A stretch of DNA of 27,312 nucleotides from a virus, in the IMG/VR virus record IMGVR_UViG_3300021185_002827, positions 1 to 27,312 of that record. The stretch is one strand, 5' to 3'. The notes below the pieces were generated by a model that saw only the letters and a program-made list of their open reading frames with translations, was not told the DNA's origin and ran no database searches. A program made the position numbers and the translations under genes. Shown in pieces: positions 6,139 to 25,585 of the stretch (positions within the stretch are counted from its first letter, which is position 1; every line of letters starts with the position of its first letter).

Positions 6139-6710
6139 TCCCAGCAACAGATATTGACATTGACACAGCAGACAGACGCCGTGTACTGGAATTATTTCCA
6201 CACACAGTGGCAGTAATTAAACGTGATAAAAAAACTGTTAAGCACAACACAGGTGTATATTTTCATAATATTCCCAGTGATCCGTTTACCGGTATGGCCA
6301 CAATTGATCACAAAGAAGCAGAAGACCGCGGCTTTTTTAAACTTGATATACTTAACCTAAGTTTATACAAAGACATAAAAACTCCAGATCAATTGGATGA
6401 ACTGATGCAAATAGAGCCACAGTGGGATTTACTTACACATAATGAATTTACAGATATGTTATTCCATGTTAACGGGCATGGAGATATATTACGTAAACTA
6501 AAGCCCACTAACATTACACAACTGGCCGCAGTGTTGGCTATCATACGTCCTGCAAAGCGACATCTGGTTGATAGTGATTGGGATACTATTATGAAACAAG
6601 TGTGGATCCCGCCAACAGACGGAACTTATTACTTTAAAAAATCACATGCTATTGCTTATGCACATGTTGTGGTTGTACAAATGAATCAGTTGGTAGCCAC
6701 TCTGACATGA
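6135..6710 (+). CDS. Miniature DnaE (Pol III alpha)-like protein, 191 aa
   Basis: Several motifs match the C-family polymerase palm in the right order: TDIDIDTADRRRV (5-17) like PDIDIDF..RR with D8 and D10 in the catalytic positions; GFFKLDILNL (66-75) like the third-aspartate motif, with D71; LRKLKPTNITQLAAVLAIIRP (119-139) like the DnaE segment before the fingers; and YYFKKSHAIAYAHV (165-178) like the FNKSHS/AAYA motif. Full DnaE proteins exceed 1,000 residues; PHP, thumb, beta-binding and OB regions are absent here. T4-like phages replicate with a B-family polymerase, so this may be a regulator, a decoy for the host holoenzyme, or a remnant. It is coupled to neighbours by ATGA overlaps at both ends. 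Confidence 0.7.
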   Translation: MIPATDIDIDTADRRRVLELFPHTVAVIKRDKKTVKHNTGVYFHNIPSDPFTGMATIDHKEAEDRGFFKLDILNLSLYKDIKTPDQLDELMQIEPQWDLLTHNEFTDMLFHVNGHGDILRKLKPTNITQLAAVLAIIRPAKRHLVDSDWDTIMKQVWIPPTDGTYYFKKSHAIAYAHVVVVQMNQLVATLT

Positions 6711-7402
6711 GTTTCAATACAGAAGAATTTTGGCACCATGGCTTCTGCAAAGTAAGAGAAAATATTCCACGCAGTACAATAGATGCACATCGTACATTTT
6801 TAAACTCCAGTCAGATACAAATTGACCGTGGACATGATATACACGGTAACTATTACAGTAGTACACCCAAACGTAAAATACAATGGGCTAATACCTGGAG
6901 TCAGGAACTAAGTGAAACACAAATAGTACATGCATGTGATAAGTTTTACATGCCTCAGATAGCATTGTTGTTGGAAGATCCAGTATTGTACCACAGTGAT
7001 GTGGTAACAACTTATCCAAACTATCAGACAGTACGTCCACATATTGACACACCTTACAGACACGAAAGTTTTGCTGATGAGGATCAGTTCTTGGGTGTAC
7101 AATGCTTGTTACCACTGACTGAAGACTTTGGTCCACGCACTGGCGGCACAGCATTTGTACCAGGCAGTCATAATACCAAATGGAATATCAAAGACTGTTA
7201 TAATGGCAAACATGATGATTATTTTACAGAAAATTGTGTAACCACACAAGTAAACTATGGCGAAATGCTGATATGGCATCCCAGAGTATTACACAGTGCA
7301 ACCCCAAATCATGGTGTGGAAAAACGCCCAGCACTATTAATGCTGTATGTAGAGCGCCACATACATGATGAATTAAGAATAATTGAAAATATTATTAGCT
7401 AA
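6707..7402 (+). CDS. PhyH-type Fe(II)/2-oxoglutarate dioxygenase
   Basis: The PhyH (phytanoyl-CoA dioxygenase) superfamily uses Fe(II) and 2-oxoglutarate to hydroxylate varied substrates. Here the HxD motif is H112-I-D114 (RPHIDTP), the distal iron ligand H196 lies in WHPRVLHSA, and R207 (EKRPAL) is placed to bind 2-oxoglutarate. The core strand FGPRTGGTAFVPGSH is typical. Length (231 aa) fits. Such genes are frequent in T4-like cyanophages; the substrate is unknown. It starts with an ATGA overlap and its 3' end overlaps a convergent minus-strand gene by 8 nt. Confidence 0.88.
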   Translation: MSFNTEEFWHHGFCKVRENIPRSTIDAHRTFLNSSQIQIDRGHDIHGNYYSSTPKRKIQWANTWSQELSETQIVHACDKFYMPQIALLLEDPVLYHSDVVTTYPNYQTVRPHIDTPYRHESFADEDQFLGVQCLLPLTEDFGPRTGGTAFVPGSHNTKWNIKDCYNGKHDDYFTENCVTTQVNYGEMLIWHPRVLHSATPNHGVEKRPALLMLYVERHIHDELRIIENIIS

Positions 7403-12081: not shown

Positions 12082-12345
12082 ATGAAAAAACGTACTAGAA
12101 GCATCCTTGATGAGATTAATAGCATAAGTGATCAGCGTGATCGCCGTTACATTGTAGAAAATACAGCGGATAACGTTATTGCCAGTGCTAGTAATTTGAT
12201 CAAATTAATTAACGAAACCTATGATGCCGATACAAGTGCGGATTTAGTTAAGCGTTTTATTAATAGTATTCGTACCCAAGACGAAATGAAATTCCGTCGT
12301 GGTATTAGGAAAGCTAATGAAAGTAAAAGACATACTGGGAAGTAA
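12082..12345 (+). CDS. Hypothetical protein, 87 aa
   Basis: A small, highly charged helical protein (MKKRTRSILDEINSISDQRD...). No domain is recognised. The ribosome site is weak (AAAAGGGCAG about 9 nt upstream). It overlaps the next gene, a nucleotidyltransferase, by 29 nt, which implies co-translation; a role in the same late module is likely but not shown. It resembles small conserved proteins found upstream of the nucleotidyltransferase in cyanophage-like genomes, as far as I can recall. Confidence 0.75.
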   Translation: MKKRTRSILDEINSISDQRDRRYIVENTADNVIASASNLIKLINETYDADTSADLVKRFINSIRTQDEMKFRRGIRKANESKRHTGK

Positions 12346-13234
12346 CCCACTAAACAAAAAACATCGAGGACCGCACCGTAAACCACGTCATCGTGGTCGT
12401 GACTTTTTCAATGAAAGCGGATCAGCACCAGGTGTTGGTCCAATTCATCGTGACGAAATTGAAGCAACACTAAAGCCATTGTCTAATGCATTGGGTGTTG
12501 ATCTTGTTAGTCAGGCGCTTGGTAGTGTTGGCAAAAAACAATTTAGTGGCGACATTGATGTTGCAATCAAGATCCCCCCAGAAAAAATTGACGAATTTGG
12601 CGAAATGCTAAAAAATCATCCGCTAATTTTATACTATGCGAAAACCAGCGTATACATTACTAAAATTAAAATCCAAAATTATGACCCTAACCGTGAAATG
12701 TTTGACCCTAAAACTAAAAAAAGTTTAGGTGTACCTGAAGGGCGCACTGGCTTTGTACAACTGGACTTTATGCCAGGCGATCCAAAATGGATGAAAACAT
12801 ATTATCACTCACCACATGAAGAAGATAGCAAGTATAAAGGTGTTTATCGTAACATCATGATTGCCAGTATTGCGGGCAGATTAAACGTGGCGGCAAGTGA
12901 TGAGAAAACTGAAGATGGTCGTCCAATGGAAATGGAACGTTGGATGTGGAGTTCAAACGGTCTAGTACGTGTTCGTCGAACACCTGTTCCTAAAAAGAAC
13001 GGCGAAGGTTATACTAAGAAAAACAATAACGAAGTAATTGACGGCCCATATTATGACGATGCATCGATTGCTAAAAAACTACAGTTAGATAGTCCTGCAG
13101 ATATGGATAGTTTTGAAACACTATTGATAGCCATGCAAAAAAACTATAGTAAAGAACTAACAGCAACAATTATTGATGATTTTAAGCGCAATGGCGTAAT
13201 ACAAAAAATGGGTATACCAGATGAAATTTCGTGA
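12317..13234 (+). CDS. Pol beta-superfamily nucleotidyltransferase
   Basis: The core signature is present: G69-S70 in QALGSVGKKQFSGDIDVAI, the paired metal-binding aspartates D79 and D81, and a third acidic residue D150 in GFVQLDFMPGD. This is the GS...DxD...D pattern of nucleotidyltransferases, which add nucleotides to RNA, DNA, proteins or antibiotics. Residues 1-40 are a basic, low-complexity extension (NKKHRGPHRKPRHRGRD) that could bind nucleic acid. The C-terminal region is unassigned. I chose ATG 12317 because AGGAAAG lies a few bases upstream. It overlaps the ligase-like gene by 14 nt. Substrate unknown; it could be a tRNA or DNA end. Confidence 0.82.
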   Translation: MKVKDILGSNPLNKKHRGPHRKPRHRGRDFFNESGSAPGVGPIHRDEIEATLKPLSNALGVDLVSQALGSVGKKQFSGDIDVAIKIPPEKIDEFGEMLKNHPLILYYAKTSVYITKIKIQNYDPNREMFDPKTKKSLGVPEGRTGFVQLDFMPGDPKWMKTYYHSPHEEDSKYKGVYRNIMIASIAGRLNVAASDEKTEDGRPMEMERWMWSSNGLVRVRRTPVPKKNGEGYTKKNNNEVIDGPYYDDASIAKKLQLDSPADMDSFETLLIAMQKNYSKELTATIIDDFKRNGVIQKMGIPDEIS

Positions 13235-14354
13235 ATTAATAACAGAAAATAAAAAGCCCTTGTTGGAAAATGCTGAAGCTCGTATTCATCATCTGGAAGA
13301 CAAAGTATTATGGGGTGGCAGTGCAGGCGCTCGTCAAGCACTAGACACACTGGAAAATATTCAAGGCAATCCCAAAGCAATCACAGTTAAATGGGACGGT
13401 TCTCCAGCAATTATATTTGGACGTGATGAACGTGGCGAATTTATAATGACTGACAAAAGTGGATTTGGCGCAGTAGGTTATGACGGTAAAGTAAAAACAC
13501 CACAAGCATTACAAAACATGTTGCTTAATCGTGGTAAAGAAGCACCAGACGATGGCCGTAAAGCATTTGCAGCTAGTATGGCACAAGCATTCACAGTTTT
13601 TGAAAGTGCAGTACCAGATAACTTCCGTGGATTTATGTGGGGCGATTTATTGTATTACACACGCCCACAAGTTGATGATGGCGACTTTGTGTTTAAGCCA
13701 CAAATGGTTGTATATCGTGTTAAAGCTGATAGTGATATTGGTAAACGTATTGCCAGAAGTAATGCTGGTGTTGTTATCCACATGAAGATTGATTTGGACG
13801 GCAACAAAAGCCGTGCTGATGCAAGTGAATTAAACGAAGGCGCATTACTGGTAATGCCACCTGTAACAGCACAACAGCCACCAAAGATTGATCAAAAGAT
13901 TTTTACAACAGCAGAATCATTATTACAAAAACACGGCAATGGTATTGACAAATTACTCAATGCTGAAATGGTAAAGCAACTTAAAATCAGTGACTTTAGT
14001 AAAATATTATACAGTTATATCAACCACAAAACCAAAACACGTAGTTTAGATAATTTATCTGGAGAGTTTATTGATTGGTTAAGTGGTAGTAAAGTAACTG
14101 GGGTCAAACAGGACCGTATACGTCAGCATATTGAGACTGACCCAGCGGCATTCAAAGGAATGTTTGATTTAATTACTGCTATTATGCAGACAAAGAATGA
14201 TGTCATCCAACAGCTGGACAATCAGGATGCAGACGTTGAGGCCTATACAGACGGTCAGCGTGGCGGAGAAGGTTATGTTATTGGAAATGGCGATGCTAAA
14301 CTTGTTAACCGCAGTGGCTTCAGTGCCGCTAACTTAAACAAGGTAAAGAAATAA
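13221..14354 (+). CDS. KxDG covalent nucleotidyltransferase (ligase-like)
   Basis: The motif K57-W-D59-G60 in AITVKWDGSPAIIFGRD is the adenylation site of ATP-dependent ligases and capping enzymes. FRGFMWGDLLYY (135-146) resembles motif III, and E350-GYVI followed by K360-LVNRSGFS resembles motifs IV and V. The internal region 210-340 is an unusual insertion between these motifs. The fold assignment is by motif only; an RNA or DNA ligase role is inferred. The N-terminus MKFRELITE followed by N resembles the capsid-targeting peptides of T4 internal proteins, which the prohead protease cuts after (L/I)xE. It overlaps the nucleotidyltransferase gene, so the pair is coupled. Confidence 0.75.
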   Translation: MKFRELITENKKPLLENAEARIHHLEDKVLWGGSAGARQALDTLENIQGNPKAITVKWDGSPAIIFGRDERGEFIMTDKSGFGAVGYDGKVKTPQALQNMLLNRGKEAPDDGRKAFAASMAQAFTVFESAVPDNFRGFMWGDLLYYTRPQVDDGDFVFKPQMVVYRVKADSDIGKRIARSNAGVVIHMKIDLDGNKSRADASELNEGALLVMPPVTAQQPPKIDQKIFTTAESLLQKHGNGIDKLLNAEMVKQLKISDFSKILYSYINHKTKTRSLDNLSGEFIDWLSGSKVTGVKQDRIRQHIETDPAAFKGMFDLITAIMQTKNDVIQQLDNQDADVEAYTDGQRGGEGYVIGNGDAKLVNRSGFSAANLNKVKK

Positions 14355-14369: not shown

Positions 14370-15164
14370 ATGGAAAAGTACACAGCAAAACAATGGGCAG
14401 AGATCGAAGGCGGCCACACAATGAGTGAAGACAAAGAACCAAAATTTGGATTTGTTAGAGACCTTAATGAAAGTCGTCAGTATCGCACACGTCAACAAAT
14501 ACAACGCAGTAATGCACGAGAGATTGTGGATCATGCATTTTTGGATATGATTACATTATATATTTTATATAATGAATTTGACATGGCACCAATTGCTGTT
14601 AAGTATGCAAAAAAGACTATGATGTATGGTAATTTTAAAGCCTACAGACAAAGTGGTACAGATTTATATGTAGCATTACATTTAATACAACGAAAAGATG
14701 CTGATGCACTGGCTGGTGACAGCTCAGATGATGCGTTACTTCAGCGTATTAAATTTCCAGAACAACAAATTAAAGTATTTTTAAATACAATGAAAATGAA
14801 TAATATAAATCCATCAACAGCAAGACAGACATTACAGTTGGTTGAACGTAAGTTTTTTATTACAAACAGTGGTTACCGCAGTGTACGCAGACTTGCACAA
14901 GATTGGCCACGTATTAATGCAACACAACGAGCGTTGGTGGTCACACGTTTATTACAGTTTTATCGAACACATGCACGTAGAAGTGAATTGTTTGGATTCT
15001 TGCAGGACTATGCACGTACTAAGAAACTGGAAATACGCAATGCACACAACGCAGAAACACCAAAAAGCAAAACTATGCAAACTGTTGCAACAGCCGCCGC
15101 CATGGGCGCCGCTGGCTATGCAGGGTTCCAAGTAGGCCGAAGCATTGGTAAAAGTTTAGTATAA
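14370..15164 (+). CDS. Putative virion protein with C-terminal glycine zipper
   Basis: The product is mostly helical and basic (LNESRQYRTRQQIQRSNARE..., ITLYILYNEFDMAPIAVKYA) and ends with MQTVATAAAMGAAGYAGFQVGRSIGKS, an Ala/Gly segment with GxxxG spacing typical of membrane-interacting glycine zippers. That suggests a protein that meets a membrane, perhaps during DNA delivery. The start is uncertain: ATG 14370 has no Shine-Dalgarno and lies at the predicted transcription start, while in-frame ATG 14421 (MSEDKEPKFGF) has GAAGG 10 nt upstream. A late promoter precedes it. I know it only as a conserved type in cyanophage-like genomes. Confidence 0.78.
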   Translation: MEKYTAKQWAEIEGGHTMSEDKEPKFGFVRDLNESRQYRTRQQIQRSNAREIVDHAFLDMITLYILYNEFDMAPIAVKYAKKTMMYGNFKAYRQSGTDLYVALHLIQRKDADALAGDSSDDALLQRIKFPEQQIKVFLNTMKMNNINPSTARQTLQLVERKFFITNSGYRSVRRLAQDWPRINATQRALVVTRLLQFYRTHARRSELFGFLQDYARTKKLEIRNAHNAETPKSKTMQTVATAAAMGAAGYAGFQVGRSIGKSLV

Positions 15165-17661: not shown

Positions 17662-18462
17662 ATGTTTTTACAAGATTTTGAAACAAAAGAGTCAAAATTC
17701 GGAAAAATGCAAAGGTACTTGAAAGAGAACCACGGCTACGAACTTGACATGAGTGCAATGGATGCAACAAAAGTTGCAGACATTATTAACAGCACAACAA
17801 ATAAAATGAAAGTAACAGAGGACTCAACAGAGTACACTAGGTTACATATGATTGCTGAAAGTCTTAAATTATGGACACCAGCACCAGTGCAAACTGAACT
17901 AACTGACATGGTTGCAGAAGCTGTTGACGACGACGGTGTTGAGCAAGCTAAAGTTATCTTGGCTGCACAGGAAATGAATGACGAACTACAAAAAATGGTA
18001 GAGCGTGTTGCAGAGATGCAAGTTCAAGACCTTATTCCACTAGTGGATGCTATGAAAGCAGAACTAGGTATGGAGCAAGCGGAAGCATTTAATAGTGCAG
18101 CCGATACAGCATTAGGTGGACTATTAGACACAGTTAAAAGTACAAAAGAAGCAGTTGAAAATGCTATCTTGGGTGCGCAAGGTCAAGCACCAGCAGTTGA
18201 CATGGAAATGCCAGCCGCTGATATCGGTGCTGACGATGTTGATATGACTGGCATGGATGCAGATGCACCAGACGATGATGCATTTGGCGGTGACGATGCT
18301 GCTGCAGATGCAGATGGCGAACCAGAAGGACGTGAACTAAAAGCTGAATCAGCTGATGTATTTGATACAATGTTGGAAGAATTACAGTCTAAAGTAAACG
18401 AAAATGGCGAAGTTAGCCGTGCTGATCTCGAAGGCGCCCTGGCACAGTTTAGAGCAAAATAA
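17662..18462 (+). CDS. Acidic coiled-coil virion or scaffold-like protein
   Basis: The 266-residue product has a helical N-terminus (MFLQDFETKESKFGKMQRYL), long helical stretches rich in Glu and Ala (70-175), a very acidic low-complexity segment at about 180-222 (Asp/Ala/Gly/Met, for example DDDAFGGDDAAADADGE), and a helical C-terminus (FDTMLEELQSKVNENGE, LEGALAQFRAK). Acidic helical composition and its own perfect late promoter fit a prohead scaffold or internal protein; gp22 is an analogue, but I do not see sequence proof. Start supported by CGGAG 9 nt upstream. It is probably abundant, given the promoter. Confidence 0.78.
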   Translation: MFLQDFETKESKFGKMQRYLKENHGYELDMSAMDATKVADIINSTTNKMKVTEDSTEYTRLHMIAESLKLWTPAPVQTELTDMVAEAVDDDGVEQAKVILAAQEMNDELQKMVERVAEMQVQDLIPLVDAMKAELGMEQAEAFNSAADTALGGLLDTVKSTKEAVENAILGAQGQAPAVDMEMPAADIGADDVDMTGMDADAPDDDAFGGDDAAADADGEPEGRELKAESADVFDTMLEELQSKVNENGEVSRADLEGALAQFRAK

Positions 18463-18463
18463 T

Positions 18464-18796
18464 ATGAGATTTAAGCAGTTAGTAGAAAGTAATTATGAAG
18501 GTGAGTTAGAGGATGCAATTGTAACACTTCTAACAGCCATTGGTGCAGAGGGCATTAATACAGTTGATACTGATCAACTTGTACTCGATCTCCAAAACCA
18601 AGGATTCAGTATTAACAAAAATAGCCTTTTTTCAACACTAAACGGCTTACCAATAGTTGCTAACGCTAACAGCGAAACAATTCAAATTCGCGGCGCAGAT
18701 ATGACACGTGCCGCGGATTTAAAAACAAGAGACAGAGAACAAAGTAAAATTACAAAGGATGCGCAAAAGCAGGCTAAAAAGGATCTAGGATTATGA
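18464..18796 (+). CDS. Small protein with capsid-targeting-like N-terminus
   Basis: The product (110 aa) begins MRFKQLVE followed by SN, again matching (L/I)xE cleavage by a T4-type prohead protease. The next part (LEDAIVTLLTAIGAEGINTVDTDQLVLDLQNQGFSI) reads as a small helical domain, and the C-terminus is a charged helix (KTRDREQSKITKDAQKQAKK). Function unknown; an internal virion protein is an inference. I chose ATG 18464, one base after the upstream stop; the longer frame from 18404 lies inside that gene. It overlaps the next gene by 4 nt. Confidence 0.78.
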   Translation: MRFKQLVESNYEGELEDAIVTLLTAIGAEGINTVDTDQLVLDLQNQGFSINKNSLFSTLNGLPIVANANSETIQIRGADMTRAADLKTRDREQSKITKDAQKQAKKDLGL

Positions 18797-24778: not shown

Positions 24779-25032
24779 GAGAAATCGTTGTATACAGTAA
24801 ACCAAATTGTCCTTACTGTGTCAAAGCAAAGCGACTGCTCGATCAGATGGAATTACCTTTTACTGAGAGAGTAGTTGGTGTAGATGCAACACGTGAGCAA
24901 CTATTAGAGGCGGCTCCAAATGCAAGAACAGTACCACAGATTATTATAGATGATAAAGTAATAGGTGGCTATGATCAATTAGCTACATATATTGAAACTA
25001 CAGGATTTAATGGAACAGGTTATAGCCTCTGA
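24775..25032 (+). CDS. nrdC: Glutaredoxin
   Basis: An 85-residue thioredoxin-fold protein with the dithiol active site C12-P-Y-C15, the cis-proline loop TVPQIIIDD and the glutathione-binding IGGYDQL. It most likely re-reduces the NrdA C-terminal cysteines, since it is coupled to nrdB by an ATGA overlap. The symbol nrdC follows T4 usage for the phage reductant; the sequence is a classical CPYC glutaredoxin. Its last 23 nt overlap the start of the next gene. Confidence 0.93.
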   Translation: MREIVVYSKPNCPYCVKAKRLLDQMELPFTERVVGVDATREQLLEAAPNARTVPQIIIDDKVIGGYDQLATYIETTGFNGTGYSL

Positions 25033-25585
25033 TAGGCATCGGCAAGATTATATACGGATACTACATTACATAGATACGTATACAGATATCGAGTACTTTA
25101 AAGGATATTTCTTAGATATTGGTGTACACCAAAAACAAGAAATGTTATTATTTGCTAACACATTTGCAAACTATGTTGGCTATGATGCAAATCCATATTA
25201 CTGTAATGAACTGAATAAAGCAGGGTATACTATAGAAAATTACATTATAAGTGATAGTATAGGGCAAAAAACTTTATATGTTAGTGGTACTCCAGGGTAT
25301 GACAGTTTAGTTCGAAGTAATGTAACAGATGTGATAGGAGAAGTTATAGTACCCTGTCAAACAATAGATAACTTATGTAAAAATAAACTTAGGGTAGATA
25401 TAATAAATGTGGATGTTGAAGGCCACGACGGAAATGTGTTAGTGGGTGCTAGATCAACAATAGAAAAACATAAACCATTACTGATTGTCGAAACATTACC
25501 AGATTATATTAAGCCTTGGTTAGAGTTACAGGGTTACATTTTTTATCAAGACCGAGATTGGTTTTGTATTCCAAGGAGAACATAA
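25010..25585 (+). CDS. FkbM-family SAM-dependent methyltransferase
   Basis: The SAM-binding motif FLDIGVHQKQE (34-44), the second strand YVGYDANP (55-62), VPCQTIDNL (115-122) and the metal- or catalysis-associated VDIINVDVEGHDGNVL (129-144) match the FkbM pattern, known for O-methylation of sugars, lipids and small molecules. The acceptor here is unknown; surface glycans or a virion modification are options. ATG 25010 is chosen (AGGA just upstream); the frame is open from TTG 24992. It overlaps the glutaredoxin gene by 23 nt, so it is translated with the reductase operon. Stop overlaps the next start (TAATG). Confidence 0.82.
   Translation: MEQVIASDRHRQDYIRILHYIDTYTDIEYFKGYFLDIGVHQKQEMLLFANTFANYVGYDANPYYCNELNKAGYTIENYIISDSIGQKTLYVSGTPGYDSLVRSNVTDVIGEVIVPCQTIDNLCKNKLRVDIINVDVEGHDGNVLVGARSTIEKHKPLLIVETLPDYIKPWLELQGYIFYQDRDWFCIPRRT

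Follow-up and report, generated by a model that had tools for sequence, protein, structure and literature searches.

A candidate strand-repair pair in marine T4-like and jumbo phages: a PolX-like nucleotidyltransferase and a ligase-fold DUF6267 protein with prohead-protease-type leaders

Introduction

African swine fever virus (ASFV) has a minimal PolX polymerase without a lyase domain and a viral DNA ligase, and the two are thought to repair gaps in the viral genome (PMC5330486). In jumbo phages, predicted pairs of RlaP transferases with Rnl ligases have been described (PMC7824862). Carriage of proteins inside the phage head is known from T4, the internal proteins of which have a short N-terminal capsid-targeting peptide; they are packed into the core, undergo cleavage and are injected (PMC3012670, PMC9958956). 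The head ejection proteins of SPN3US and phiKZ have propeptides that are cut after Glu, while their homologues in some phages are unprocessed (PMC5694885).

Here we describe two adjacent phage genes, P0001 and P0002, and compare them with these systems. Like the ASFV pair, they combine a ligase-fold protein with what appears to be a minimal PolX-like enzyme without a lyase domain (P0001). The differences are that the pair is phage-borne, its genes are adjacent or fused, its ligase has no OB domain, prohead-protease-type sites are present, and no AP endonuclease was found next to it. With the RlaP and Rnl pairs they have in common that a Pol beta-superfamily transferase neighbours a ligase in a phage genome; however, P0001 is not RlaP by profile, its partner is a DUF6267 protein and the products are probably packaged in the head. 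With IPI-III and Alt of T4 the proteins share a short leader with a predicted prohead-protease cut, whereas the T4 internal proteins known so far comprise inhibitors and an ADP-ribosyltransferase rather than a polymerase-ligase pair. SPN3US and phiKZ differ in the cleavage motif (A/S-x-E) and in the cargo, which consists of RNA polymerase and proteins of unknown function. P0002 belongs to the same family as T4-GC71 (DUF6267) of cyanophages, but T4-GC71 pairs with, or is fused to, the HIGH-type cytidylyltransferase GC190.

The locus and its surroundings

The window, by which we mean the whole stretch of 27,312 nucleotides that was analysed, corresponds to a virus record that is a 27.3 kb fragment. 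It encodes a DNA helicase, a partial DNA polymerase, a primase and a DnaB-type helicase, as well as an exonuclease and phage-type head genes. A first-pass annotation made from the sequence alone had described two open reading frames with a 14-nt overlap, and both are present at the positions it gave, on the plus strand (Table 1). P0001 has an alternative, longer open reading frame with a GTG start at 12299.

Table 1. Features of the locus in the window (a slash marks a predicted cut)
Feature	Position	Strand	Description
87-aa protein upstream of P0001	12082..12345	+	phrog_11854 'virion structural protein', head and packaging, E=6.3e-15
P0001 ORF	12317..13234	+	305 aa; PolX/Pol beta-like nucleotidyltransferase (likely); Asp triad D79, D81, D150
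P0001 propeptide, predicted	12317..12415	+	Residues 1-33 (MKVKDILG...RDFFNE), predicted cut E33/S34
P0002 ORF	13221..14354	+	377 aa; DUF6267, ligase-fold protein (likely); motif I K57-W-D-G, IV E350, V K360
P0002 leader, capsid-targeting-like	13221..13247	+	MKFRELITE, predicted cut E9/N10
P0002 helical insert	13893..14219	+	Residues ~225-333, secondary structure of the model
Third module protein	14370..15164	+	[IL]xE site at E34/S35 (RDLNE/SRQYRT); glycine-rich hydrophobic C-terminus

Elsewhere in the window two more head/packaging proteins are encoded at 18464-18796 and 17662-18462 (phrog_15050 and phrog_14154), the first of which has a capsid-targeting-like N-terminus, MRFKQLVE/S. An FkbM-type methyltransferase (25013-25585; PF05050, E=2e-12) and a phytanoyl-CoA dioxygenase family protein (6707-7402; PF05721, E=4e-15) were also found.

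The transferase P0001

Relatives of P0001 were collected from IMG/VR into an alignment of 35 rows. Residues S77, G78, D79, D81 and D150 are invariant in it, and there is little or no variation in the motifs GS69-70, SGDID77-81 and D150. The AlphaFold model (pLDDT 87.8, pTM 0.78), in which residues 1-33 are the sole stretch with a pLDDT below 50, has DNA polymerases lambda and beta and bacterial PolX as its best solved matches in the VIA comparison (Z 9.7; rmsd 3.5-4.1 over 176-182 aligned residues). A Pol beta-type nucleotidyltransferase had been read from the pattern GS..SGDIDV and D150, and both the conservation of these motifs in the 35 relatives and the modelled fold agree with that reading.

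At the profile level, an hhalign comparison of P0001 with bacterial PolX gave P=0.0058, a value that is weak alone, over 98 columns, which begin with the GS/GDxD motif, take in the third Asp and reach the fingers motif (TGS..N..R..A..G..(N/S)xxGL). This alignment agrees with the structure matches. P0001 is called PolX-like here; it is likely so by its modelled fold and Asp triad, which does not make it a proven member of PolX. CCA-adding (P=0.027) and MNT-type (P=0.072) enzymes were rejected as identities, their profile matches being poorer than that of PolX. RlaP was rejected as well (P=0.21): PF10127 matched neither P0001 nor any of 34 relatives at E<=1, and in the control a bacterial RlaP was matched by the same profile at 1e-93. 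The Pfam palm and thumb domains had no match in P0001, nor was any convincing family match found in Pfam, PHROG or NCBIfam. PDB sequence searches with single proteins and with profiles returned nothing relevant, and NCBIfam and PADLOC searches gave no match.

Bacterial genomes yielded a single relative of P0001, L214 (NYSS01000163.1), on a contig of 5.6 kb assigned to a Planctomycetota MAG. All of its proteins are phage-like in appearance, and it is probably a mis-binned phage contig. Many P0001 relatives (e.g., L168, L178 and L191) end in a conserved tail, ES-LADKQLxRIKxL, which the window copy lacks and which is possibly another signal. Five others (L162, L164, L172, L173 and L193) are proproteins of ~600-1100 aa that share the N-terminal domain MRINEVD..FTRHFLDRVNDERNVKQIT, followed by a low-complexity middle and, behind [IL]xE/GG, the P0001 domain at the end. 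L172, the one of the five that was scanned, had no Pfam match.

The ligase-fold protein P0002

P0002 is a member of Pfam family PF19782 (DUF6267), matched with E=2.6e-33 and 116 bits against a cut-off of 27 over profile positions 4-375 of 376, and also of phrog_455. Both families are without an assigned function, and no paper on DUF6267 was found in the literature searched. The first-pass annotation had noted a ligase adenylation motif, K57-W-D-G, together with late motifs around E350-G and K360. In an alignment of 67 DUF6267 proteins, IMG/VR relatives with 20-98% identity, the following positions of these motifs are invariant: K57, W58, D59, G60, E350, G351, V353, K360 and V362. Invariance down to about 20% identity goes well past what chance would produce and indicates that the motifs of P0001 and P0002 are active-site-like and strongly constrained.

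The AlphaFold model of P0002 (pLDDT 91.4, pTM 0.87; residues 4-18 disordered with pLDDT below 50) has the adenylyltransferase domain of a fungal tRNA ligase as its best solved match by Foldseek (E=0.034). Among the matches listed by VIA, 50 of 50 are ligases or related covalent nucleotidyltransferases, headed by the Naegleria RNA ligase at a moderate Z of 6.8 (rmsd 4.5, 180 residues aligned) and with DNA ligase IV, T4 Rnl1 and T4 Rnl2 below it. The consistency of this list and the order of the motifs make the ligase-fold assignment likely despite the moderate Z, and by motifs and modelled fold P0002 likely belongs to the covalent nucleotidyltransferase superfamily of ligases and capping enzymes. 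The fold and the motif order are also consistent with K57, E350 and K360 sharing a single pocket, as the earlier reading would require. Structure models and matches to solved structures thus agree with the folds guessed earlier for both proteins, and we hold these two assignments to be correct with high confidence.

The model lacks the OB-fold domain that would follow motif V in an ATP-dependent DNA ligase; only 17 residues, modelled as one helix, come after K360. About 130 residues between the motif blocks, which the earlier reading could not place, correspond in the model to an all-helical insert (Table 1), located after the middle strands and ahead of motif IV. Two DUF6267 members matched RNA_lig_T4_1 weakly, and hhalign of DUF6267 against bacterial RNA ligases found nothing.

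The missing OB domain and the closest likeness to RNA ligases, namely the Naegleria enzyme and the fungal tRNA ligase, make an RNA substrate possible for P0002. In such a case P0001 would restore nucleotides and P0002 would seal tRNA of the host or the phage after cleavage by anticodon nucleases, the enzymes being either injected or made in the cell. The weak RNA_lig_T4_1 matches and the description of Pol beta-family transferases beside RNA ligases in jumbo phages (PMC7824862) point the same way. Against this stand the PolX-like rather than RlaP-like profile of P0001, the fact that no kinase or phosphatase was seen beside it, and the consideration that virion packaging suits incoming DNA better than tRNA which is cut later. 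On balance RNA repair seems unlikely to us, albeit deserving of attention. The earlier proposal of an end-repair pair is borne out in its folds and in the linkage of the genes, described below, but not in its example of tRNA repair, given that RlaP has no match and the transferase is PolX-like.

Linkage of the two genes

A ligase-like gene lies near P0001, or is fused to it, in 32 of 42 non-redundant relatives. The partner is a downstream DUF6267 gene in 28 of them, overlapping or abutting P0001 in 25 of the 28; in three relatives it is a divergent, Phosso-type ligase-like gene placed upstream, and in one the two are fused. A second P0001-DUF6267 fusion besides this one (L056) was found in L024. 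No close ligase gene was found in the other 10 relatives, for three of which DUF6267 is located elsewhere in the same contig or in that of a close relative (G001, G006 and G067, the last through L171, which is closely related to L169). G001 has the gene order of the window minus P0001. The absence of co-occurrence elsewhere had been named in advance as grounds for abandoning the proposed pairing; the genes are in fact adjacent, or even fused, across unrelated phages, and the pair is a true module.

A third gene often follows the pair, including in jumbo phages. Its product in the window is 31% identical to Phosso CDS448 (E=3e-30). Sinorhizobium phage Phosso and Agrobacterium phage Atu_ph07 both have the ligase-like gene first, then the P0001 homologue and the third protein, with the module located a few genes downstream of a helicase. 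The Phosso-type ligase-like protein has the motifs EKLDGS and EGVV...KVVDKxxF. Its alignment with DUF6267 gave P=0.0026 for motifs I/III and P=1.7e-4 for motifs IV-V, the latter from windows centred on EG and thus biased.

In Kyanoviridae DUF6267 adjoins, or is fused to, a cytidylyltransferase of the HIGH type instead of the PolX-like enzyme, which indicates that the DUF6267 ligase can do without P0001. In S-PM2 (p141/p142, L046:5016-6795) the DUF6267 protein is split over two open reading frames; the C-terminal half forms a fusion protein with the cytidylyltransferase T4-GC190, a fact hidden by the annotation of p142.

An exchangeable partner, PolX-like here and of the HIGH type in cyanophages, would also suit another kind of chemistry. 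P0002 could transfer AMP or GMP to a protein or to a nucleic-acid end in a capping-like manner while its partner modifies the same target, which would disarm a host function on entry in the manner of T4 Alt and IPI. T4-type internal proteins are indeed mostly directed at the host (PMC3012670), and with a helical insert present and the OB domain missing, the chemistry after the lysyl-AMP step is uncertain. The palm and fingers of PolX type point to nucleic-acid ends, however, and a strict linkage with a ligase agrees with filling and sealing, for which reasons we regard modification of this sort as improbable.

Leaders and prohead-protease-type sites

The T4 prohead protease gp21 cuts after [IL]-x-E. 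Glu immediately precedes the domain in all 35 aligned relatives of P0001, with Leu, Ile or Phe two places ahead of it, any residue in between, and [GS]G following. The full pattern [IL]-x-E/[GS]G stands at the start of the domain in 30 of 32 non-redundant relatives; the window copy reads FNE. The leader, counted up to and including the Glu, is from 4 to 834 residues long, and the P0001 homologues of Phosso, Atu_ph07, Lak and PA5oct begin directly at M[GS]G.

DUF6267 proteins start either at the domain (about 14 of 75 are without a leader) or with a leader such as MQSFLTFLTE, MNFSDFITE or that of the window copy. P0002 has a second possible site, LLE, at residues 14-16. A stringent T4-like leader expression matched 26 of 77 DUF6267 proteins versus 49 of 825 other open reading frames (Fisher P ~1e-11, with relatedness ignored). 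In the third protein [ILV]xE precedes the domain in nearly all of 25 distinct N-termini (e.g., MDFLKDLHE/ARMTRN). Both P0001-DUF6267 fusions keep a site at the junction, LSE/G in L024 and LRE/S in L056, and the leader of the G001 DUF6267 protein resembles that of the window P0001 (5 of 2000 shuffles were as good).

A loose count of [IL]xE was discarded as sole evidence, since 42% of other open reading frames have the motif within their first 32 residues. The weight was put on the position at the domain start, on invariance and on the stringent leader pattern, and binomial P values for the site, which ignore relatedness, were not used as probabilities. P0001, P0002 and the third protein thus carry conserved sites of the T4 prohead-protease type at the start of their domains, and together with the capsid-targeting-like leaders these sites indicate packaging in the head.

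The same sites, the disordered leaders and the neighbouring head proteins might also be expected of core or scaffold proteins which serve head assembly and in which the enzyme folds are no longer of importance. Catalytic residues invariant at 20-98% identity would be unexpected for mere structural parts, and we consider this very improbable.

Similar leaders were seen on other proteins. A RimK-like ATP-grasp protein of Methylophilales phage Melnitz (L211:82-1131; PF08443, E=3e-33) begins with MTQKFSQFITE/EPK and is possibly another injected enzyme. Genes 15-18 of Melnitz, around DUF6267 (L045:3920-8583), are four consecutive genes with leaders that end in [IL]xE (MQGFKTFLSE, ..INFSKYITE, MKKFSELTSELIE and MKKFSEIIE); a HIGH-type cytidylyltransferase is among the products, and by its leaders the group resembles an internal-head-protein cluster.

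Protease and virion records

Among the relatives, G001 and G004 encode a gp21-type protease; the G001 enzyme has 51-60% identity to its counterparts in Phosso, PA5oct and Atu_ph07. The G001 capsid protein has the same kind of site, YLSE/SANSG, at the expected place. In G003, the closest long contig (its P0001 is 81% identical to that of the window), which may be incomplete, no protease was found.

Two records bear on the presence of these proteins in virions. The P0001 homologue of PA5oct, gp253 (HMM E=1e-20; also matched with a 237-residue viral model at E=1e-12), is annotated as 'structural protein, ESI-MS/MS', and the ligase-like gp256 in the same record only as 'hypothetical'. In cyanophages, T4-GC190, the cytidylyltransferase that follows DUF6267 (T4-GC71) or is fused to half of it in S-PM2, was detected in S-SM1 virions; GC190, not GC71, is named in the main text of that study (PMC3037559). 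Based on the sites and on these records for a homologue and a neighbour, P0001 and P0002 are probably packaged in the phage head.

Proposed mechanism

We see about an even chance that the module is a two-enzyme strand-repair kit which is packaged in the phage head, injected with the genome, and works by filling and sealing. The leaders would bring P0001, P0002 and the third protein into the prohead core, where a protease of the T4 gp21 type would trim them after [IL]-x-E, leaving the mature domains inside the head. The trimmed proteins would then enter the cell with the phage DNA. P0001 would act as a minimal PolX-type nucleotidyltransferase made up of palm and fingers and without a lyase domain, and P0002 as the core of a polynucleotide ligase of the ATP type, carrying the helical insert. 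Catalysis is likely, and in the joint reaction that we infer P0001 would add missing nucleotides at a gap or an end and P0002 would then close the break, all ahead of the expression of any phage gene. The substrate of this fill-and-seal reaction would somewhat more probably be DNA than RNA.

A wider reading, which we put forward tentatively and with rather less than even confidence, is that a widespread family among marine T4-like and jumbo phages packages a polymerase-ligase end-joining machine, produced in proprotein or polyprotein form, and injects it to mend breaks in the incoming genome, by filling and sealing, ahead of expression. This would amount to virion-borne DNA repair or to an NHEJ-like circularisation.

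Significance

The ingredients of this module are known singly, and their combination in a family of many marine phages appears to be undescribed in the literature searched. DUF6267 is widely carried among ocean phages, with 68 records in the phage collection and more than 590 contigs in IMG/VR. If a ligase and a PolX-like partner are indeed packaged, phages would carry repair enzymes into the cell, and the view of the first minutes of phage DNA in the cell would change. The leader signal would in addition offer a means of finding more injected enzymes in T4-like phages.
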